NCBI GenBank assembly: GCA_025934735.1
Contig: JAICWP010000001.1
Coordinates: forward strand, 1-64,000
DNA length: 64,000 nucleotides
From: Terriglobales bacterium
GTDB lineage: Bacteria; Acidobacteriota; Terriglobia; Terriglobales; Acidobacteriaceae
Direction: 5' to 3'
Shown here: positions 34,552 to 46,331 of the stretch, one piece after another
Position numbering within the stretch: the first letter of the stretch is position 1
How the letters are laid out: the number at the start of each line of letters is the position of its first letter
Notes under the pieces: model-generated
What the model saw: only the letters and a program-made list of their open reading frames with translations
Database searches by the model: none
What the model was told of the DNA's origin: nothing
Program-made: the position numbers and the translations under genes

Positions 34552-34581
34552 GCGGCTTAGTACACTTCTTCATGCGAGGCC
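34552..34581. repeat. Direct-repeat partner within the pilX 3' end
   Basis: The 30 bases starting GCGGCTTAGTACAC match 32925-32954 at 29 positions. They include the stop codon and last codons of the operon B pilX gene. Together the two copies bracket about 1.6 kb. Confidence 0.85.
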
Positions 34582-36065
34582 ATCACGCGCAGGGCAATGC
34601 GCTGGGAAAAGTTGGTCATCCAGCAGCTGTCGTAATTCAACGTCATGTTGCCGGCGCCGTTCCAGGTAAAGGACGGAACACCGGGAGCGCTGCTGGACGG
34701 CAGCAGGGCGTTGCTGCTGTCGTACAAGTTCGCGACGAACAGTCCGCCGTTGATGGTGGAAGTACCGTTGCCGTTAGAAAGCAGTTGCCCCTTGCCGATC
34801 ACCAGGACGATTCCGTTGAAGGTGGAGTTACCGCTGCCGCCAATGGTGAGCGCGCCCGTCACCAGCAGCAGGCCGGCGCCTCCGCTGGTGGGATTTAAGG
34901 TGTAGTCCCCATTCACCACCGTGATCAGAGGTGCGGACGTGGTGCCCAGATTGCTGATGGTGGGGTTATTGGTGTTGTAGATCTGGTCGGCGCTGGTGTC
35001 TATATTGGTCACCAGATTCTGCAATCCGCCCACGGTGCTTAGCATTCCCAAGGTTGAATTCACATTGACCACGCTGGGCGTGCCGCCTGCGCCTTGGTAC
35101 AAACCGGTCTTAGTGCTGGGAATGTCCGCGATCAGGGTACTGGTGGAAGTGGCATCGAAGCCGCCCATGGCCGGCATGGTGCCCGCTACTCCGCAGGCAT
35201 CGGCGCCGTTAATGACTAAGGCGTTGGAGTGCGGCGGGTTGAAATTGGGGGCGGCGCCGTCCATGGTGATGGCGGCAGGTAGCGGCGGCAGGGTGATGGG
35301 CGAAACTTCATACTGCGTCATTTTGCGCGAGCCGTTGCTCAGCTTGGACAAAGAGGTGATGACGTACACCTCGCGCATGTTGGACTGCTCGCAGGTGGTA
35401 GTGCCGGCCGGCATCGGAGTCTCGTAGTACTGCGGAACCGCGGGCGAGGCGCCGTTCAGGGCAGCACAAACCTGCCTGCTGGCACTGGGGCAAGTGCTTT
35501 GGGGGGTGGACGAGTTCGCGCAATAGGGAGCCGTAGAACCCACCTGCTTCAGGGTGATGCGCACCCACTTGTACGGTATGGAAGCGGCCGTAGCGGTGTA
35601 AGGGTCGGTGCTCTGAGGATTCGCGACGGTGTACCACGTGCCCGTGGGCGCGGTGGTGCACGGTACGGTCAGCGCGGTTTGCGAAAGCCCCAGGCCAGAG
35701 TAGTTCTCATGGCAGAGTTCGTCATCGAAATAAGTGGAGCCTGCCACCCATGGAGTAATGGATTCTGAAGCGCTGGCTGGATTGATGATGTAAATCACGC
35801 CGCCGGCGTTGGTGGTGGAAGGCATCACCGTGGGGGGTGGGATGGCAGTAGCGGGACTGGTGTACTTGCGCAGTCGTTCGCGTCCTTCCTCCAGGCCGGC
35901 TTTGGAAGCGTAGTAGGCCTGCTGCTCGGAGCGGAAGTTGGCGTCAATTCCCGTCTCCGTGGTGGTCATGTACATCATTCCCAGCCCCACGGCGGTGAGC
36001 AGCATCAGGGCGAACAGCACCAGGATAAGCGCCATGCCGCGTTCGCGATTGGATTTCCGGATCAT
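34557..36065 (-). CDS. PilX-like pilus assembly protein (operon B)
   Basis: A 502-residue protein, paralogous to the operon A protein at 17797-19302. The N-terminus has RGMALILVLFALMLLTAVGLGMMYMTTTETGID, followed by SEQQAYYASKAGLEEGRERLRKY, the PilX pattern. A large secreted region carries several Cys pairs (CANSSTPQSTC, CAAL, DACGVAG) and an N/G/S-rich repetitive C-terminal part (VNGDYTLNP, FNGIVLVIGKGQ). It is last in the operon. Its 3' end is duplicated at 32925. Confidence 0.85.
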   Translation of the reverse strand: MIRKSNRERGMALILVLFALMLLTAVGLGMMYMTTTETGIDANFRSEQQAYYASKAGLEEGRERLRKYTSPATAIPPPTVMPSTTNAGGVIYIINPASASESITPWVAGSTYFDDELCHENYSGLGLSQTALTVPCTTAPTGTWYTVANPQSTDPYTATAASIPYKWVRITLKQVGSTAPYCANSSTPQSTCPSASRQVCAALNGASPAVPQYYETPMPAGTTTCEQSNMREVYVITSLSKLSNGSRKMTQYEVSPITLPPLPAAITMDGAAPNFNPPHSNALVINGADACGVAGTMPAMGGFDATSTSTLIADIPSTKTGLYQGAGGTPSVVNVNSTLGMLSTVGGLQNLVTNIDTSADQIYNTNNPTISNLGTTSAPLITVVNGDYTLNPTSGGAGLLLVTGALTIGGSGNSTFNGIVLVIGKGQLLSNGNGTSTINGGLFVANLYDSSNALLPSSSAPGVPSFTWNGAGNMTLNYDSCWMTNFSQRIALRVMASHEEVY

Positions 36066-36080
36066 GCTTCCTCCCCATTC

Positions 36081-36884
36081 CTAAAGATTGTTCGGTTTCA
36101 CCATGGCCCGCATGGACACGCCGGAGCGCAGATGCGTCTGCAAGTCCTCCTGCGCGGAAAGCAGGTTCAGGGCCACGCTGATCATGTGCACGTTGGCGAC
36201 AGCGCTTATGCCGGTGTTCAGATTCGACCCCTGCAGGTCGGATGGAACCGTTACCGCGTTGCCGTTCTGGTCATAGAACGAGAACACGGGGACGGTTTTG
36301 AACGAGGCGTAGAGCGTGTTATTGCTGACGGCGGTGCCGTTGAAAATAGTGCCGCCGTCCAGGGCATAGGGGCTCGCGCCTCCCGTGCTGTTGATCACGT
36401 TCTGCAATTCGGTGTTGTACTGCACTGTCTGAGAACTGGGCGCCGTGCCACCCGTCTTGAGCGTGCTGCCGCGCATGATGGTGCAGGGACAATGGCCGTT
36501 AGCATTGGCCTGCAGGGTGTAGCGGATGCTCTGCACCTGGCCGCTGTCATCAATATCGCCTTCAAACCAGAGATCGGTAGCCGAAACCGCCACCAGGCCG
36601 ACAGCCACATTGGAGTTGCTCTGCGCCGTGGACCCGCTCCCGATCGCAGCAGGGTCATACATGCGCAGGCCGGGATACCCGGCGCTGTGCAGGTCGCGCA
36701 CGATCTGGTCGAGAAATTCGCGCGATTGCTGGGTGGTGTTGACCCGGTTTTCTTCCTGCCGGTATTTCTTCATGCCGTCGAGAATCGTATTGAAGATGGC
36801 TCCCAGCACCAGGCTGAGCACAGCCACCACAATCAGCATTTCAATCAGCGAGAAGCCCCGTTGTTGGTGCGCATGTCGGCTCAT
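36081..36884 (-). CDS. Type IV minor pilin, PilW-like (operon B)
   Basis: A 267-residue prepilin with cleavage after QQRG, before FSLIEMLIVVAVLSLVLGAIF. The FLDQIVRDLHSAGYPGLRMYDP stretch is the PilW hallmark. The core DLWFEGDIDDSGQVQSIRY matches the operon A protein. CPCT is also shared. AGGAGAA lies five bases before ATG 36884. It starts nine bases after the pilV stop. Confidence 0.9.
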   Translation of the reverse strand: MSRHAHQQRGFSLIEMLIVVAVLSLVLGAIFNTILDGMKKYRQEENRVNTTQQSREFLDQIVRDLHSAGYPGLRMYDPAAIGSGSTAQSNSNVAVGLVAVSATDLWFEGDIDDSGQVQSIRYTLQANANGHCPCTIMRGSTLKTGGTAPSSQTVQYNTELQNVINSTGGASPYALDGGTIFNGTAVSNNTLYASFKTVPVFSFYDQNGNAVTVPSDLQGSNLNTGISAVANVHMISVALNLLSAQEDLQTHLRSGVSMRAMVKPNNL

Positions 36885-36892
36885 GATTTCTC

Positions 36893-37447
36893 CTAGTTCT
36901 CCGCCACTGCGGCGACGCCGCGCAAGGTTATGGGCAACAGAAACGAATTGGCGGCGGTTGTGCCTTTGGGCTTGGCCGCCACCCGCACCTGGCGCGTGAA
37001 AACGGTGGGGCCCGAGGTGTCCATGTCCAGAACGTTCCAGCGCACGTCATAGACGGCGGTTTGCCCGTTGGCGCGGCATACCGTGTACTGCATGCTGTAG
37101 TTGCTGCCGGGAGCGGCTTGCGAGAAATCAATGTCGCCGCTGCTGGTGAGCGCCGCACCCGTTCCCGGCGAGGCGCCGCCCACGGTGTTGATGGTGAAAT
37201 TGTTGCTCAGGCAATCGGTCAGGGCAATGGTGGCGGTGCCGTTGGTGCCAGCCAGCATAATCTGCTCCAGCACGCTTTGCGAAAGCAGAGTAGCGGTGGA
37301 GTCTCGTTTGCTGCGGCTGTTATTGCCGATGGCCATGATGAACAGCCCCATGATGGCCGACAGTCCGACCGCGGCGATGCCCAGGGCAATGAGCAGTTCA
37401 ATTAGCGTCATGCCCGCCGAGTTGCGTTTACTGATGACCGGTTTCAT
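36893..37447 (-). CDS. Type IV minor pilin, PilV-like (operon B)
   Basis: A 184-residue prepilin. Cleavage is after NSAG, before MTLIELLIALGIAAVGLSAI. The LLSQSVLEQIMLAG motif is typical of PilV. Cys residues DCLSNNF and TVCRANG likely pair. GAGGAG precedes ATG 37447 by four bases, nine bases after the fimT stop. The operon A counterpart shares the S-P-G-x-G-A-x-L and D-I-D-F patterns. Confidence 0.9.
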   Translation of the reverse strand: MKPVISKRNSAGMTLIELLIALGIAAVGLSAIMGLFIMAIGNNSRSKRDSTATLLSQSVLEQIMLAGTNGTATIALTDCLSNNFTINTVGGASPGTGAALTSSGDIDFSQAAPGSNYSMQYTVCRANGQTAVYDVRWNVLDMDTSGPTVFTRQVRVAAKPKGTTAANSFLLPITLRGVAAVAEN

Positions 37448-37455
37448 GCGTCTCC

Positions 37456-38136
37456 TCATTGCTGCGCCCAGGAACTGCCGTTGTACAGCCACACGCTGAC
37501 CAGGCCGGCGGGCGTAACCGAGACGGCGGCGTAGGTGTTGGAGTTACTGCCGGCATACCGCAACAGGTACAGGAAACCCACGGGAGCTGCGGGCGACACG
37601 CTGCTGTCCCATTCATTGCAGACTTGTACAGTGCCGCTAGGGTTCGGCTCAGTGGTGGCGGGATTGCCCACGCACGGTAAGCCACGCGCGTTGTACGAAG
37701 CGGGTACCGTAGCCCCTAGCGCAACGTAATTCAGTCCAGTGAATCCCGTTGGACATGGTGTGGTTAAGGCTCCGCAAGTGATCTGGGCGGTTGACGGTCC
37801 GCTGCCGTTGGTGATCAGCGTTACATTGCTGGCCAGCACTATCGTGGGCTCGCCGGAGGTGCAGCCACCGCTGTAATCCAGATCGATGCAGGCTTCCTGG
37901 CCGCCATTGCTGAAGGTGGTGAACACCACACTGTAGAAACCATTAGCCTTGACTGCCTGAATGCGCGTGCGCTGCAGCACGCTGGCCACATCCTGCGCCG
38001 AACTCTGCAGGCGGATGATCTGCAGGTTCTTGGAGATGATGGGAAATGCAGCAACCGCTACCACCATCATGACCACCATCACAATCAGCAGTTCCAGCAA
38101 GCTGAAACCGCTGCGCCGTGCTCGACGCTTCTGCAT
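37456..38136 (-). CDS. Type IV minor pilin, FimT/GspH-like (operon B)
   Basis: A 226-residue prepilin. Cleavage is after RRSG, before FSLLELLIVMVVMMVVAVAAF. The post-helix LQSSAQDVASVLQRTRIQAVKANG matches GspH/FimT. The closing region (RGLPCVGN, LYLLRYAGSNSNTYAAVSVTPAG) resembles the operon A protein. AAGGAG lies eight bases before ATG 38136. It is the first gene of operon B (FimT-PilV-PilW-PilX), which runs down to 34557. Confidence 0.9.
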   Translation of the reverse strand: MQKRRARRSGFSLLELLIVMVVMMVVAVAAFPIISKNLQIIRLQSSAQDVASVLQRTRIQAVKANGFYSVVFTTFSNGGQEACIDLDYSGGCTSGEPTIVLASNVTLITNGSGPSTAQITCGALTTPCPTGFTGLNYVALGATVPASYNARGLPCVGNPATTEPNPSGTVQVCNEWDSSVSPAAPVGFLYLLRYAGSNSNTYAAVSVTPAGLVSVWLYNGSSWAQQ

Positions 38137-39397: not shown

Positions 39398-39895
39398 ATG
39401 CCTGCTTTGATCGCCGGCAGGGCCGCTCCCGAGTTCACTCTGGAGGACATGAAGGGTGGCAAGTTCAGCTTGCGCGAGGCCCTGAGCCGCGGCCCGGTAC
39501 TGGCCGTGTTTTTCAAAATTTCCTGCCCGGTATGTCAATTCGCTCTGCCCTATGTGGAACGCATGTACCGGGCCTACGCGGGCAAGAACGTCACCATTCT
39601 CGGGGTTTCGCAAAATAACGAGAGCGATACCGCCGCTTTCCTGCGGGAATACAAGATCACCTTTCCTGTGCTGCTCGACGATACCGACAGCTATCCCGTC
39701 TCCAATGCGTACGGCCTGACCAATGTGCCCACTCTTTTCTGGATCGAGCCCGACGGCGAAATCGGACTCAGCAGCGTGGGCTGGAGCCGGAAAGAGATGG
39801 AGCAGATCAATAGCCTGCTGGCGGAGGCGGGACGCGGCACCCCCGCGCTCATTTTTTCCCCGGGGGAAAACGTACCCGACTTCCGCGCCGGTTGA
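39398..39895 (+). CDS. Cytoplasmic thioredoxin-fold peroxiredoxin/TlpA-like protein
   Basis: A 165-residue protein without signal peptide. It has the AhpC/TSA-like start (AGRAAPEFTLEDMKGGKFSL) and a CPVC redox motif in FFKISCPVCQFALPY. The cis-Pro loop TNVPTLFWIEPDG follows. The CxxC favours a thiol-disulphide oxidoreductase; peroxiredoxin activity is possible. GAGGAGGAG lies upstream of ATG. It follows mutY by 58 bases on the same strand, possibly the same transcript. Confidence 0.85.
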   Translation: MPALIAGRAAPEFTLEDMKGGKFSLREALSRGPVLAVFFKISCPVCQFALPYVERMYRAYAGKNVTILGVSQNNESDTAAFLREYKITFPVLLDDTDSYPVSNAYGLTNVPTLFWIEPDGEIGLSSVGWSRKEMEQINSLLAEAGRGTPALIFSPGENVPDFRAG

Positions 39896-40052: not shown

Positions 40053-41525
40053 ATGCATTTGTGTCGCAGCGCGCTGGCGGCAGTCCTGCTGTGCAGCGGG
40101 GCTTTTGCCGTTGCTGGGCACGCCAAGGCCGCACACCCGCGCTCCGCCAAACTGCTTCCCATCACTACCAATTCGGCGGAAGCCCGCAATCTGTTCCGGC
40201 AGGCCATGGTCAACCTGGAAAACCTGCGCACGGAGTGGGCGCTGGCGGGCTGGCGCGCGGCCGCCAAGAAGGATCCCAACTTCGCCCAGGCGCAGATTCT
40301 GGTGGCTTATCTCACCCAGGATCCGGCGGAGGAAATGGCGGCTTTGGCGGCCGCCAAAAAGCTGGAGCCGAAGGTCACGCCAGGCGAGCGCCTGCTTATC
40401 GAATGGCTCAGCGGTGTGCGCGAGAGCCGCTACGTGCCCGCCATCGCCGCTATGAACGATTTGCTTTCTCTTTACCCGCAGGACCGGCGCCTGTCATTCC
40501 TGGCCGGCCGCTGGATGATCCTGCAGGGGCGCTACGACCACGGCGAGATGCTGCTGGAGCACGCCATTGCGCTCTACCCTGACTACCCTGCAGCAATCAA
40601 CGAGTTGGGCTACGCCTATGCCTACAACGGCGAGTTCAACAAATCCATCGCCATGATGCAGAGGTACGTGGCGCTGCAGCCCAGGGAGCCCAATCCGCAG
40701 GATTCCTACGCGGAGATTTTGCGGCTCTCGGGAGACTTTTCCGGCGCCCTGGAGCACTACCGTAAGGCGCTCCAGTTGGACTCCAATTTCGTAAGCTCGC
40801 AGTTGGGCATTGCCGATACTTACGCGTTGATGGGGCAAGAGGATCAGGCGCGGCACGAATATGACAAGGCCATTGCGCTGGCTGATGGCGAAGGCGCGCG
40901 CTTGCAGTATGGCCTGCAGGAAGCCATCACCTATGTTCGGGAGAGACGCTATGTGGAGGCCAACCAAGCCTTCCGTGCGCTGGCTGACGAAGCCCATCGC
41001 GAAGGCTTTGCCCATGTGGAAGCCGACGCCTACCGCAGCATGGCTGTCTATGATCCCCAGGTGCCTGCGGCCATGAAGGACCTGGATCTTGCGGAAAAAG
41101 CGCTGGGCGATCACTGGGTGTCGCAATCCGATGCGGATGAAGAGCACGCGTTCATCTTGGGTGTGCGGGCGCAGCGCGCCTTGCAGGCCGCGGATCGCAA
41201 GACGGCGCTGCAGGCGGTCCAGCAACTCCAGGCCATGGCAGCCTCCAGCCGCAGCGCAGCGGTGCAGCGCTCCTTTCATGCCGCCGCCGGAGCCCTGGCC
41301 ATGGCGCAAGGAAAGTACACCCAAGCGGTGGCGCATCTGGAGGAGGACCAGGACAATCCCTTATCCCTGGAACTGCTGTGGCGAGCTCTCAGGAAGACGG
41401 GGGCACGGGACGACGCGGCAGCTCTGCGCTCCGACATGGCGGCCTTGAATGAGCCCTCGCTGGAGCAGGCCGTGGTGGACCCGGAACTGCGCGCCAGCCT
41501 GAGCGGGGCGGCGGCGCACCCGTAA
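40053..41525 (+). CDS. Secreted TPR protein
   Basis: A 490-residue protein with a signal peptide (SALAAVLLCSGAFAVAGHAKA). Tetratricopeptide repeats run from about residue 45 to 330 (AINELGYAYAYNGEFNKSIAMMQRY, PQDSYAEILRLSGDFSGALEHYRKALQLD, SQLGIADTYALMGQEDQARHEYDKAI are clear). The rest is also helical. GAGGAA precedes ATG 40053; the open frame extends upstream to 39723 but without a plausible start. It probably forms an operon with the cyclase-like gene 17 bases downstream. Function unknown. Confidence 0.85.
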   Translation: MHLCRSALAAVLLCSGAFAVAGHAKAAHPRSAKLLPITTNSAEARNLFRQAMVNLENLRTEWALAGWRAAAKKDPNFAQAQILVAYLTQDPAEEMAALAAAKKLEPKVTPGERLLIEWLSGVRESRYVPAIAAMNDLLSLYPQDRRLSFLAGRWMILQGRYDHGEMLLEHAIALYPDYPAAINELGYAYAYNGEFNKSIAMMQRYVALQPREPNPQDSYAEILRLSGDFSGALEHYRKALQLDSNFVSSQLGIADTYALMGQEDQARHEYDKAIALADGEGARLQYGLQEAITYVRERRYVEANQAFRALADEAHREGFAHVEADAYRSMAVYDPQVPAAMKDLDLAEKALGDHWVSQSDADEEHAFILGVRAQRALQAADRKTALQAVQQLQAMAASSRSAAVQRSFHAAAGALAMAQGKYTQAVAHLEEDQDNPLSLELLWRALRKTGARDDAAALRSDMAALNEPSLEQAVVDPELRASLSGAAAHP

Positions 41526-41542: not shown

Positions 41543-43777
41543 ATGGCGCGCATCCCCATTCTGCGATTTGGCAACCTTGCCGATCACGCACGCCAGCTCA
41601 ATCTCACCAGCTATTCGCCCGTCATCGTGCTGGAGGGGCTGGTGCGTGGCGTGGACAACGTGCGCCACGACGTTTACCTCAGCTCCCGCTTTTGTGAGGA
41701 GGCGCGGGCTTACCTGGGCGGCCTGATCGCGCGTCAGGCCAACGTGGCCGATTTGATTATGGAAACGCCGCGGCCGCTGCAGCCGCGCAGCAACCTGCTG
41801 ATGCGCGCGCGCGAGGAGCGCCCTGAACCGCCCAGCCCGCGGGGCACGCCGGCGGAGTTCAAGCGGCTGCTCTCCGACCTGCAGGTGGAAGCGCTGAAAG
41901 CCGCCAAGCAACAGGGCAATGTTTCGCTGGACCTGCTGGCCCGGCTGGCGGTGGTGAAGTTTCTGCGCTCCGAGGTGACGGCGCAGTTTGCCACCGTTCT
42001 GGAGCGCTGCCGCACTCTCCTCAAAAGCTCCGAAAACAGGCCGGAGCGGACCAACCAGATTCGCGACCGGGTTTATGCCCTGCAGGTCTCGAAAAAGTCG
42101 GTGCTGCGCCGCGCCGGACAGGAAATTTTCGAAACCCTGCGAGACATTGAAAAGCAGACGCTGGTGCGAATGCGCCAGTCCTTATTCGGCGATGCCGCGG
42201 GCGGCAGCTACGAACTTTTCCTCAACCGCCTGGTGTTCACCGAAGATGGCCGCGACGATTACTTGAATGCTGAGCATTACGTCATGCTTGGCAATTACGA
42301 GCACGATCCTGACCGCTTTCCCACCATGCGCGAGCTGGCGGGCGCCTTCCTGGTTTCACTGGATGTGGTGGGGCCGGGCATGGACGCCGACCGCGTGCTC
42401 GACGGCCTGCTCAACTCTCCGGAAAATGCCCAGGAACTGGTGGCCGGGGGAGCTCCCGATGACTCCTCTCCCCGGGGCAAAGCGCAAAAGGCGCTGCTCA
42501 ATACCTGGCAAGATTTCTTGGAATCGCAAAAGGTAATGGATCACGTAGTGGCCTCCTATGAGGCGGTGCCGCTGTTAAGCGAATATTCGCCCGCCATCAA
42601 CGCCCAGCAGTTGAAGAACGCGCTGGTGTCCAAAAAGGAACGCAGCCGGGTAGAGTCTCTGATTACCGAGCACCCCCGGCTCTCCCCCGCCAGCCTGCAG
42701 GCCGCCATCCGCCGGATCGGAGAAATGAAAGGGGCTGACCGGGCCCGTATTGCCGGACGTTTTCTGAGCGACTTCATGCGCTACCACCGCGACCTGCGCC
42801 GCCTGGAAGCGCTCAACTCCGCGCTCGACAGCGTCAACGTAATCGGCAACGAGAAACTGCGGGAGCTCTCCTCGCTCAACCGGTTGCTCTACGAGTTCCT
42901 GCTTCGCGACGAGCAGAAGCCCAGCGAAGAAAAGGTCGTGCATCACGTCATCATCAAGGCCGACGTGCGCGATTCCACTCGCATGACGCGCGCCCTGGGC
43001 GAGCGTGGCCTCAACCCGGCTTCCTACTTCAGCCTGAACTTTTACGATCCGGTGAACAAGCTGCTGCCCAAGTATGGCGCCGGAAAAGTTTTTATCGAGG
43101 GCGACGCCATCATTCTGGCCCTGCTGGAATATGAGGGCGAGCGCGGCTTTGCGGTGAGCCGCGCCTGCGTCTTGGCCAAGGAGATGGTGGATATCGTGCG
43201 CGCCTACAACGAGGAGTCGCAGAAGGCCGGCCTGCCCGGGCTGGAGCTGGGCGTGGGCATCACCTACCAGGGCTCGCCGCCCATGTACCTGATGGACGGC
43301 AGCGCGCGCATCATGATTTCCGAGGCGCTCAACGAGAGTGACCGGCTTTCCGCCTGCAGCAAAGAGGCGCGCCGCCTGCTGCCGCTGGGTGGACCGTTTA
43401 ATGTGTACCGGTTTCAGCTGCAGCGCGAGGCCAACACCAGTGAGTTCGAGAACGCGCCCCTGGTGTACAACGTCAGCGGCATTCAGTTGAATGCCGCCGC
43501 CTTCCACAAGCTGCAGCAGGAAATTTCTCTCCAGGCGCAGGATGTGGCTATGCCCACCATTTGGGAAAGCGAGCAGATGCGGCTCCACAGAGGGCTGGTG
43601 CCGCTGGAAGGCGGATTATTCCACACCGTGGTGGTCCGCGAAGCCCGCGTCGCCCGGCTCAACGCCCGCGACTTCTCCCCTGTAGGCTGGAGCGACGATC
43701 TCTATTACGAAGTGTGCACCAACGCCGGCGTGTACCGCTTTCTGGAACAAACCCAGGCCGCCAAAGCCGGCCAATAA
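41543..43777 (+). CDS. Large protein with divergent class III nucleotide-cyclase-like domain
   Basis: A 744-residue cytoplasmic protein. Residues 1-90 contain an alpha/beta head (SPVIVLEGLVRGVDNVRHDVYLSS). Residues 100-460 are mainly helical, charged and unrecognised. Residues about 466-605 resemble a class III adenylate/guanylate cyclase: ADVRDSTRMTRAL (Asp474/Asp477, compare ADIxGST), IEGDAIILALL (Asp521, compare GDAxxA), GVGITYQG and ISEALNESDRLS (compare NLAARL). The C-terminal 140 residues are unassigned. The two metal Asp positions and the Asn seem conserved, so it may be active; this is inference. It starts 17 bases after the TPR gene. Confidence 0.7.
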   Translation: MARIPILRFGNLADHARQLNLTSYSPVIVLEGLVRGVDNVRHDVYLSSRFCEEARAYLGGLIARQANVADLIMETPRPLQPRSNLLMRAREERPEPPSPRGTPAEFKRLLSDLQVEALKAAKQQGNVSLDLLARLAVVKFLRSEVTAQFATVLERCRTLLKSSENRPERTNQIRDRVYALQVSKKSVLRRAGQEIFETLRDIEKQTLVRMRQSLFGDAAGGSYELFLNRLVFTEDGRDDYLNAEHYVMLGNYEHDPDRFPTMRELAGAFLVSLDVVGPGMDADRVLDGLLNSPENAQELVAGGAPDDSSPRGKAQKALLNTWQDFLESQKVMDHVVASYEAVPLLSEYSPAINAQQLKNALVSKKERSRVESLITEHPRLSPASLQAAIRRIGEMKGADRARIAGRFLSDFMRYHRDLRRLEALNSALDSVNVIGNEKLRELSSLNRLLYEFLLRDEQKPSEEKVVHHVIIKADVRDSTRMTRALGERGLNPASYFSLNFYDPVNKLLPKYGAGKVFIEGDAIILALLEYEGERGFAVSRACVLAKEMVDIVRAYNEESQKAGLPGLELGVGITYQGSPPMYLMDGSARIMISEALNESDRLSACSKEARRLLPLGGPFNVYRFQLQREANTSEFENAPLVYNVSGIQLNAAAFHKLQQEISLQAQDVAMPTIWESEQMRLHRGLVPLEGGLFHTVVVREARVARLNARDFSPVGWSDDLYYEVCTNAGVYRFLEQTQAAKAGQ

Positions 43778-43833: not shown

Positions 43834-45657
43834 TTAGTACGGTATGCGGTGCACTTCGAAAGGAATGCGGATCACCGCTTCCAGCGCTACCGCCAAGCCA
43901 TTCTTGGTGGCGGGACGGAAGTGGCAATGGCTCAGCGCATCGCGCGCGGCCGCATCCAGCCGGCCCTCCACGCCGCGCAACACGCGAACTCCGGCCACGT
44001 TGCCGTCGGTTCCGATCACGGCATACAGCGTCACCGTGCCCTCCACGTGCTCGCGCATCAGGATGCCCGGGTAGGCCGGATCCACTTTCTCCACCACCAC
44101 AGGCGCGGTCAAGTCCCCCTGCTTGTCATCCTGGTTGAGTTCGGCAAAGCGAATTACCCAGCTGCCGCTCCGCGAGTTCAGGTTGGGCATGTTAAGGGTG
44201 ACGGAATAAAACTTTTTATGACCGAACACCTGGCGGTCAATTTCCGAAGGCGCAATGCTGGGCGCTTCCGTAGTCACGCGCGGCGGCAGGCTCGGAACTC
44301 TGGCCAGCGCCATCAAGTTATGTCCGGGCGCCAGGCCTGCTGCCACTGGCGCGCCCGTATTGGCGGGTGAGGACGTCCCGGGCGCGACATTAATTCCCGC
44401 CAATTTGTCGCTGCTCGGACTGTTGCTGCTGCCGGTGCCTGCTTCCGCCGTGCCGCCGCTATTCGCGGCGGGCGTGCCTGAAGCGCCGGCATGTCCGGAA
44501 GGCTCGGCGGCGAAAATTCCCCGCCGGTTGCCCTGCGGAACACTGATTGGCCCGCTGACGGCGGTTGGCGAGAGCCCAAGGGCAATCAACTGGCCGCTGG
44601 GCCGGCCGAACACCACATTCTGTGTATCCGGCGCCGCGGCAGCACTGCTCTCAGCCTGTCCGGCAGCGCCACCCGTTTGAGCGCCATTACCAGTGGCAGT
44701 CCCTCCCTCGACTGTGGCACTCTCCGTCTGCTGCGCCGGCAGCGGCAACTTGGGAGCGGAAACCTGCGGCTGCAGCTCAGCAACATTCATGGTGCCCACC
44801 GTACGCGTCACGGTTGCGGTTGCCACCGGCGGCGGAACCACCGCCGGCTGGGGCGCGTTGGGCACGTGCACGCTTGCCAGGTCGGATGTGTTCTCCGGGG
44901 CAGGCGCAACTGCCGTGGGCTGGGCCAGCGCCGGACCGGCATGATGGGCGGCATCCGCAACGTCGGGTGGTGGCGCAATCACCGAGGCCTGCGGTACCGG
45001 CGAGGCAGCGCGATCGTTTGCCCGCGCCACTTCAGGCGGAGGGGGAATTACCGGCGTAGAAATCTGCGGCAGCGTCAGCTTGGAGTTGAGCGAGCCGGGC
45101 ACGGGCACGGGGCCAGGGCTGGGCGTCCAGGCCACCAGGTTGGGCAGGGACATCTCCTGCGCCAGCTTTACATCCGGAGGCGTGACAATCGTCTGGCTGC
45201 GGTTGTCGGCTTCCGGTGGCACCGAGATGATTTCCTGGGGCGCATAGGCGGGGTCCGCCGCACGCGGTTCGCGGGCTCGCGGACTGGGCGTCTTGATGGG
45301 CGGCAGGTACTCAGACGTTGTGTAGTAAACGATTTGGCTGTGCTGGAACTGGGGCCGCATGGTCACTTGAGGCCGGTTGAGCCAGGCGGCTTGCGACAGG
45401 CTCCAGATGGCCGCCACCATCAGGCCGTGCGTCAGGACTGATTCCAGCAGGCCGCGCCAGGGCAGGCCCGCGCCGACAAAAACGTCAGTCCAGAAGGGAC
45501 CAGCCTCCAGCCATGGGTCATTCGGCGTGCGGCGCAGCAGCGCTGCCAAATTGCCGAATAATGACGTAAGACGAGGTTCTAGCCGAATCAGGAACTGGGG
45601 TGCGGGTCCACTGGCACTGCACCTTGGCGAATTCGGCTGGCCTGGCGGCAGGGACAT
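43834..45657 (-). CDS. TonB-family energy-transducer protein
   Basis: A 607-residue protein. A cytoplasmic start is followed by a transmembrane helix (LLESVLTHGLMVAAIWSLS, about 72-92), a very long Pro/Ala/Val-rich periplasmic linker (about 120-480), and a C-terminal TonB domain (KVDPAYPGILMREHVEGTVTLYAVIGTDGNVAGVRVLRG, then ALSHCHFRPATKNG). ATG 45657 is preferred because TATAAT lies 26-31 bases upstream, inside the longer frame that begins with GTG 45705. No ExbB/ExbD is adjacent. It is convergent with the cyclase-like gene. Confidence 0.85.
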   Translation of the reverse strand: MSLPPGQPNSPRCSASGPAPQFLIRLEPRLTSLFGNLAALLRRTPNDPWLEAGPFWTDVFVGAGLPWRGLLESVLTHGLMVAAIWSLSQAAWLNRPQVTMRPQFQHSQIVYYTTSEYLPPIKTPSPRAREPRAADPAYAPQEIISVPPEADNRSQTIVTPPDVKLAQEMSLPNLVAWTPSPGPVPVPGSLNSKLTLPQISTPVIPPPPEVARANDRAASPVPQASVIAPPPDVADAAHHAGPALAQPTAVAPAPENTSDLASVHVPNAPQPAVVPPPVATATVTRTVGTMNVAELQPQVSAPKLPLPAQQTESATVEGGTATGNGAQTGGAAGQAESSAAAAPDTQNVVFGRPSGQLIALGLSPTAVSGPISVPQGNRRGIFAAEPSGHAGASGTPAANSGGTAEAGTGSSNSPSSDKLAGINVAPGTSSPANTGAPVAAGLAPGHNLMALARVPSLPPRVTTEAPSIAPSEIDRQVFGHKKFYSVTLNMPNLNSRSGSWVIRFAELNQDDKQGDLTAPVVVEKVDPAYPGILMREHVEGTVTLYAVIGTDGNVAGVRVLRGVEGRLDAAARDALSHCHFRPATKNGLAVALEAVIRIPFEVHRIPY

Positions 45658-45682
45658 AACTTCATCCAAGGGCGCGGCCCCG

Positions 45683-45688
45683 ATTATA
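45683..45688 (-). promoter_or_regulatory. Candidate -10 box for the TonB-family gene
   Basis: A perfect TATAAT on the minus strand 26-31 bases before ATG 45657. No convincing -35 element is spaced 16-18 bases upstream, so a regulated or extended -10 promoter is possible. Confidence 0.45.
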
Positions 45689-45815
45689 GCCGCTTTTCTT
45701 TCCACAACTTCCGCAAAACGGGAATTGACAGCGGTTCCCGACCTTGCCCCGGTGAGCTGGCCCGTAAGAGTAATGTTTTCAGCATCGCCCTTTAATGCTT
45801 AAATGGGGGAATCCT

Positions 45816-46331
45816 ATGCGCAAAATTTTGCTCTTCGTTCTTCTCTTAGGGTTGGGCTCGGCGAACGCGCAGAGCACCGCCGCACCCGCGCAAACCGTCA
45901 GCAGCCAAGGCGCCGCAACCTCCACATCGGCGGGGGATTACACCGGCATGTACGGTTTTCTGCGCGATGGAGAGTTTTTGCAGATCACGGTGGGAGAGAA
46001 GGGCAAGCTGGAAGGTTTTGTCTCGCGCTATGGCGAGTTGAATAGCGATCGCGGCGCGTTTCTTGACCAGTTCATCAAGCAGGGCACTCTGGATGGCCAC
46101 AACCTGAGCTTCCTTACGGAAACCGTGCATGGCGTTTGGTTCGAATTTAAGGGAACGGTCGGCCGAGGCGAAGGCAAGACCGTGAATGACGAAGGCTATT
46201 ACGTACTCAAAGGCACGCTTACCCAGCACGTAGCCGACGCCAACCACAGTGACGCAGCGAAGTCCCGCGAAGTCGTATTCAAGTCTTTTCCGCAGGACGT
46301 GAGCGCGCCGGCATCTGCCCCCAAGGACTAG
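45816..46331 (+). CDS. Secreted protein of unknown function
   Basis: A 171-residue protein with a clear signal peptide (RKILLFVLLLGLGSANAQ). After a Ser/Thr/Ala linker comes a beta-rich domain (YTGMYGFLRDGEFLQITVGEKGKLEGFVSRYGE, FLDQFIKQGTLDGHNLSFLTETVHGVWFEFKG), ending in a charged tail. GGGGGA lies just before ATG 45816. It diverges from the TonB-family gene and ends two bases before the next gene's stop (convergent). No named family. Confidence 0.75.
   Translation: MRKILLFVLLLGLGSANAQSTAAPAQTVSSQGAATSTSAGDYTGMYGFLRDGEFLQITVGEKGKLEGFVSRYGELNSDRGAFLDQFIKQGTLDGHNLSFLTETVHGVWFEFKGTVGRGEGKTVNDEGYYVLKGTLTQHVADANHSDAAKSREVVFKSFPQDVSAPASAPKD

Follow-up and report, generated by a model that had tools for sequence, protein, structure and literature searches.

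The window (the whole stretch of DNA that was analysed, 64,000 nucleotides from a Terriglobales bacterium) carries, at positions 41543-43777 on the forward strand, an open reading frame that starts with ATG, has no internal stop and encodes a protein of 744 amino acids. The gene and the parts of its product discussed here are as follows.

41543..43777, + strand: gene for the 744-residue cyclase-like protein (stop codon included); an intact open reading frame with relatives at 38-69% identity
41543..42868, + strand: predicted N-terminal helical domain, residues 1-442, folded alone by AlphaFold2; motif GVDNxRxDV (36-44) and block D238-R258 conserved
42872..43735, + strand: predicted class III cyclase domain, approximately residues 444-731, its short lead-in helix counted (Foldseek, VIA-align and hhalign)
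42956..42979, + strand: first metal motif, K472-A-D474-V-R476-D-S478-T; K472 and D474 in 94/94 aligned sequences and in 7/7 rows left out of the alignment
43091..43105, + strand: second metal motif, F517-I-E519-G-D521; F517, E519 and D521 in 94/94 aligned sequences and in 7/7 rows left out
43310..43345, + strand: I590-M-I-S-E-A-L-N597-E-S-D600-R601, proposed equivalent of IGDxVNxAxR (conservation and predicted strand-helix order)

Immediately upstream on the same strand, a TPR open reading frame ends at 41525, which confirms the 17-base gap between the two genes pointed out in an earlier reading of the letters alone (the sequence-only reading). The TPR frame is readable from 39723, thereby overlapping the redoxin open reading frame (39398-39895), and a start at 40053 gives a protein of 490 amino acids with a signal-peptide-like head (40053-41525, +). 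Downstream, on the opposite strand, lies a gene for a protein with a TonB-type C-terminus by eye (43834-45705, -). Further upstream, several pilin-like minor-pilus genes follow one another on the minus strand (34557-38136), with PilX-, PilW-, PilV- and FimT-like heads, again by eye.

The 744-residue protein has no evident signal peptide and no transmembrane stretch as judged by sequence and hydropathy (maximum 19-residue hydropathy of 1.14), in agreement with the signal-less head described previously. It had no significant match in Pfam, NCBIfam, PADLOC or PHROGs, and neither the protein nor the profiles of its family had a significant match among PDB sequences. Weak matches to HTH_32, ThermoDBP-RP, phrog_12848 and an EF-hand-like model (E 0.03 to 2.3) were taken as chance. 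A Guanylate_cyc profile search, suggested in the sequence-only reading as a check, gave a negative result: the Pfam model (PF00211) did not match the protein even at E 1, and it has no match in the window's genome. We take the missing match of the protein as a mark of divergence, since the superfamily is defined by its fold and catalytic residues.

The protein is a member of an intact, usually single-copy acidobacterial family. A match was found in 16 of 41 genomes (the window's own counted), and the family profile matched 98 of 200 genomes sampled from the window's taxonomic family at E<=0.001; one of the 98 (G401) was weak, covering residues 28-103 at E 2.1e-4, which leaves 97 strong matches, with 50 of 79 genera represented (200-genome sample). 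In the class sample, 88 of 299 genomes matched, of which 14 belong to the window's family and 74 to others, and in the phylum sample of 297 genomes there were six matches with the single sequence and six with the N-terminal profile, all in the window's own family. None of the 12 genomes listed for one genus (g34) had a match. Named genomes were scanned as well, with 445 relatives confirmed; the best 80 of these 445 all carry acidobacterial names. Most matching genomes of the window's taxonomic family have one match and some have two or three, several being fragments; in the other families of the class a genome usually has two, since each half of the protein is matched by the profile separately. 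At the distant loci the protein has 818-901 residues in 18 of 20 cases, and the remaining two read 581 and 694. A literature search on cyclases of Acidobacteria/Acidobacteriota, with subscription papers mostly outside its scope, found nothing.

To the C-terminal part of the protein, structure prediction assigned a familiar fold. AlphaFold2 modelled the whole protein (74 sequences) with a mean pLDDT of 89.9 and a pTM of 0.72; block means in the cyclase domain were 76-97, except for 62 at residues 631-640. Comparison of this model with the PDB by Foldseek returned 125 matches at E<=0.001, and among the matches listed 50 of 50 were mononucleotide cyclases, with the soluble cyclase CyaC at the top (1wc4_A; E 1.4e-7, TM 0.65 by target). 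With VIA-align, the best match was adenylyl cyclase 9 (AC9), with Z 16.2 and rmsd 2.7 over 172 aligned residues in the model range 463-727. A further 93 residues within this range are unaligned, i.e., approximately 90 residues of the domain are without counterpart in solved cyclases, and judged by the predicted strands they would lie mostly between residues 628 and 692. The range 463-727, together with the fold matches to solved cyclases, places the domain at about residues 445 to 731. A short helix in the AlphaFold2 model (437-445) leads into it, and in ordinary cyclases a short helix likewise precedes the cyclase domain.

A link to ordinary cyclases was also found by profile comparison. In hhalign, the profile of the family's cyclase domain was compared with one built from 11 ordinary class III cyclases of Acidobacteriota and matched it at E 6.6e-8 (Prob 94.6); the whole-protein family profile matched it at E 1.3e-6 and the profile of the 94-sequence alignment at E 2.1e-8 (Prob 95.3). 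One ordinary cyclase of a relative (locus L019, genome G024), with a GAF-GAF-PAS-cyclase architecture by eye, was matched by the 744-residue sequence alone (E 1.9e-4) and by the family profile (E 3.6e-7). The C-terminal domain is predicted by these comparisons to have the class III cyclase fold, and Foldseek, VIA-align and hhalign agree on the divergent cyclase behind an unrecognised helical region that had been proposed from the sequence. The four motifs on which the proposal rested (ADVRDSTRM, EGDAIIL, GVGITYQG and SEALNESDRLS) were all found, and the profile and fold matches place them beyond chance. The extent given for them, residues 466-605, fared less well: the cyclase domain extends over about 445-731, and residues 1-442 form a single confidently predicted helical domain, which has no recognised relative. 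The sequence-only reading had named a fold mismatch or the loss of both metal aspartates as grounds for giving up its proposal; the fold matches, and D474 and D521 are kept.

Conservation in the active site was read from an alignment of 94 sequences, comprising the 744-residue protein, its 73 nearest named relatives and 20 sequences from more distant families of the class; seven of the best 80 loci were left out (two missed by the anchor pattern, two long and three short). The 20 distant loci were drawn from a profile search, and the anchor pattern for them, which demanded K472, D474, R476, S478 and GDA/GEA, lost none of the 20. K472, D474, F517, E519, D521, N597, D600 and R601 are invariant in 94/94 sequences, with the reservation that KVF[IL]EGDA was among the seeds used to scan the named genomes, which partly ascertains F517, E519 and D521 in the rows obtained that way; position 590 is Ile in 92/94 and Val in 2/94. 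All seven relatives left out of the alignment retain the eight key residues, and the 20 distant loci, viewed with a smaller set, keep the same residues. A separate alignment, built from a single-sequence search with no anchor pattern, showed the same invariant residues in 20/20 rows including the window, and in it I590 reaches at least 90%. Of the 290 positions in the domain, 49 are conserved at 97% or more, and each of the eight positions tested is one of these 49 (hypergeometric P 4e-7), a P value that is indicative because the positions were picked via knowledge of class III enzymes after the first alignments had been viewed.

By their alignment in hhalign, D474 (the first Asp of ADVRDSTRM) is paired with the first and D521 (the Asp of EGDAIIL) with the second metal aspartate of ordinary cyclases. 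For the third motif, the deepest local hhalign run aligned IMISEALNESDR to IGDxVNxAxR, N to N and R to R, while other runs, including the global run, paired it with a later segment (ILVNDLIYE), so that the register depends on the alignment; with the C-terminal stretch alone the matches were weak (E 0.016 and 0.37) and the first register was unsupported. We favour the IGDxVNxAxR register on the invariance of the motif and on the predicted order of a strand (588-592) followed by a helix (594-603) in the AlphaFold2 model, and N597 and R601 would then be the Asn-x3-Arg pair that steadies the transition state.

The residues expected to read the base differ from those of ordinary cyclases. The panel used for comparison consisted of 45 loci, i.e., the best-scoring Pfam matches and L019, and it leans to typical sequences; 43 of the 45 loci aligned at E<=1e-8, the profile being made from 11, and L154 was unaligned at the second motif. 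Two residues before the first metal Asp (Asp1-2), Phe stands in 43/43 aligned ordinary acidobacterial cyclases and K472 in the 744-residue family; four residues before the second metal Asp (Asp2-4), Lys stands in 42/42 and F517 in the family, so that the Phe and Lys of ordinary cyclases seem swapped. At Asp2-2, the Ile, Leu or Met of the ordinary enzymes is replaced by Glu (E519). The Asp/Thr/Cys position, seven residues before the Asn, is Thr (32), Asp (4) or Ser (1) in the ordinary cyclases where aligned, and Ile or Val at residue 590 in 94/94 members of the family. Two loci too divergent for the ordinary cyclase profile (L153 and L156) read FLSIDxVGSTKM by eye, with Ser at Asp1-2, so Phe at this position is not universal.

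A Lys-Asp pair marks ATP cyclases and a Glu-Cys pair GTP cyclases, an established rule that PMC4886424 also states. Neither the Lys and Asp/Thr pair (ATP) nor the Glu and Cys pair (GTP) is present in the 744-residue family (94/94 sequences). HMMER inserts one residue before G520 and so sets V516, not F517, opposite the canonical Lys, whereas hhalign has no such shift; in either register there is neither Lys nor Glu at this base-choosing position. According to PMC11224242, cyclases that departed from the ATP and GTP residue sets proved to make cUMP and cCMP: the CTP cyclase EaPycC chooses its base through F100, R142 and Q144 and has D102 and D146 as its metal residues, and a change of F100, R142 or Q144 to alanine abolished activity, while AnPycC has base-choosing F60, K104 and F109 with metal residues D62 and D106. 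By count from this published numbering, K472, F517 and E519 occupy the positions of EaPycC F100, R142 and Q144. Since a Lys and Glu pair could in principle accommodate adenine and guanine as well as cytosine and uracil, no substrate is named here.

The unusual pocket bears on two alternatives to a working cyclase. The fold might be catalytically silent, kept as a nucleotide-binding sensor or as a scaffold for the helical domain; the base pocket is indeed unlike that of known adenylyl and guanylyl cyclases, the Pfam models have no match, and regulatory pseudo-cyclase domains are known in general. Pseudoenzymes often lose their metal ligands, however, and here the metal Asp pair and the Asn-x3-Arg pair are unchanged in 94/94 sequences, which makes a dead fold unlikely. 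Between two of the possibilities raised in the sequence-only reading, a signalling enzyme or a dead cyclase fold, the signalling enzyme is accordingly the probable one, with metal aspartates and pocket fully conserved; the conserved site is proof of constraint, not of product. The second alternative is an NTP-using enzyme that performs other chemistry on the cyclase fold, for example synthesis of linear or cyclic oligonucleotides or NTP hydrolysis. K472 and E519 are novel pocket residues, and the class III fold sits in a wider polymerase-palm group that includes diguanylate cyclases; against this, the 50 Foldseek matches listed are without exception mononucleotide cyclases and the conserved Asn-x3-Arg pair is typical of class III cyclases, and we judge other chemistry to be less probable still than a silent fold.

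The surroundings of the gene were compared across the family, with neighbour counts over 80 loci being lower bounds because the flank lengths differ. Upstream, MutY was found in at least 38/80 loci and redoxin in at least 43/80, and downstream, on the opposite strand, a TonB-type protein in at least 51/80. A small protein that looks secreted by eye, encoded in the window at 45795-46331 (+), recurs in at least 35/80 loci. Different genes recur around the cyclase gene in the more distant families of the class; at loci L124-L142 it is accompanied by genes that by eye are TsaE-, Nnr- and NtrY-like. The sequence-only reading had taken the cyclase and the secreted TPR protein for one coupled system, and their short spacing on the same strand in the window fits that idea, as do the intervals of -55 to 24 bases seen in the seven relatives that have a TPR gene at -1. 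A survey of this neighbour, which that reading had called for, speaks against it: the TPR gene is directly upstream in only 7/76 loci and present at all in 8/80 (at L047 it is a TPR gene by similarity, yet was not called as the -1 gene). In 29/76 loci the -1 gene instead encodes a protein of approximately 569 amino acids, an M28-type peptidase by eye, and in the remainder other genes take the place; the -1 gene is on the same strand in 56/76 loci and on the opposite strand in 20/76, as called by a crude gene caller, and some of these genes are possibly spurious. Coupling of the two genes is therefore most improbable.

A defence-like role had also been raised for the protein, and in its sharpest form the protein would be a Pycsar-like pyrimidine cyclase acting against phage. 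VIA-align matched the model to the cUMP synthase 7r65 (Z 15.2, rmsd 6.6 over 201 aligned residues), and residues are changed at the very positions that set PycC specificity. The context argues otherwise. PADLOC, which presumably contains Pycsar models, gave 0 families at E<=1 for the 744-residue protein, and a cyclic-nucleotide-binding domain was found in just 1/100 family loci (L074), with a model built from nine domains of the window's genome, which may overlook distant types as well as effectors that lack such a domain. The protein had no match in 72,556 plasmids and 50,697 phages, and among viral contigs 27 candidate stretches were obtained, none encoding a relative. Moreover, the K-F-E set is unlike the PycC sets given in PMC11224242. 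Given that the same chromosomal genes recur around it and that the phage, plasmid and viral collections searched contained no match, the gene looks like a vertically kept chromosomal gene and not a defence module, and a Pycsar-like function has very little likelihood. The window's genome (G000) has ten matches to cNMP-binding domains (loci L157-L166), so receptors for a cyclic nucleotide may exist.

Folded alone by AlphaFold2, the N-terminal domain (residues 1-442) gave a mean pLDDT of 91.8 and a pTM of 0.89, nearly all helix, and a Foldseek search of this model against the PDB gave no significant match (best E 0.1); the fold searches used the whole 442-residue model, in which a match of a sub-domain may be hidden. 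VIA-align rows for the same residues (best Z 6.2; a 14-3-3 run with Z of about 5) were within the range of unrelated helical proteins and were set aside. D38, N39, D43, D238, D255, N295, Y339 and D410 are each conserved at 97% or more in the 94 sequences, and these polar positions suggest a binding surface or pocket. The family defines a helical domain of approximately 440 residues that was so far unrecognised.

We consider it likely that the 744-residue protein is a cytosolic, chromosomally encoded and active class III-type nucleotidyl cyclase controlled by its helical domain. Following established class III enzymology, two chains would pair head-to-tail, two metal ions held by D474 and D521 of one chain would activate the ribose 3'-OH, N597 and R601 of the partner chain would steady the transition state, and an NTP would be converted to a 3',5'-cyclic NMP and pyrophosphate. 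The base would be read by a pocket of K472, F517 and E519 in place of the Lys-Asp/Thr set for ATP or the Glu-Cys set for GTP, and such a pocket would not commit the enzyme to cAMP or cGMP as its product. By conjecture, the helical domain at the N-terminus, which has invariant polar residues, might be the regulatory part and bind a ligand or partner; alternatively, it might set the geometry of the dimer through the short helix 437-445. The TPR gene would have no part in this system. A bolder reading, which we offer tentatively and at somewhat less than an even chance, is that of a class-wide acidobacterial signalling enzyme with a new nucleotide-reading code (K472; F517, E519) in place of the known ATP, GTP and pyrimidine sets. 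Its housekeeping signal would be a cyclic nucleotide that is neither cAMP nor cGMP, or else cAMP or cGMP made by a new mode of recognition, under an unprecedented helical sensor. The family is deeply conserved: roughly half of the genomes sampled from its taxonomic family have it, as do others elsewhere in the class, and the K, F, E set is invariant and unlike all sets compared. Class III cyclases pick the base via few positions, and with these altered the product is an interesting question.

Among known systems, the class III cyclases (PF00211; CyaC 1wc0-1wc6, Rv1625c 7yz9 and Cya2 2w01) are like the 744-residue protein in the predicted fold of about residues 445-731, the two metal Asp, the probable Asn-x3-Arg pair, the order of strands and helices and the lead-in helix. 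The protein differs from them in that it lies below Pfam detection, has Lys and not Phe at Asp1-2, Phe and not Lys or Glu at Asp2-4, Glu at Asp2-2 and Ile at the Asp/Thr/Cys position, and carries approximately 90 unaligned domain residues and an unrelated N-terminal domain. The Pfam model of DUF2652, which we take to be included in Pfam-A, had no match to the protein at E<=1. The DUF2652 proteins tabulated in PMC4886424 have 183-385 amino acids and come from Actinobacteria, Bacteroidetes and Proteobacteria; they have Lys-Glu or Glu-Lys/Arg pairs, and no Asn at the place of the transition-state Asn. They resemble the present family as another uncharacterised bacterial set of class III fold with unusual specificity residues. 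From the PycC enzymes of Pycsar (7r65 BcPycC; EaPycC and AnPycC), the protein differs in its 440-residue N-terminal domain, in having no regular adjacent cyclic-nucleotide effector or mobile context, and in the residues themselves at the specificity positions, yet it shares with them the fold and the alteration of these positions, counted relative to the metal Asp, that set specificity in EaPycC (PMC11224242).
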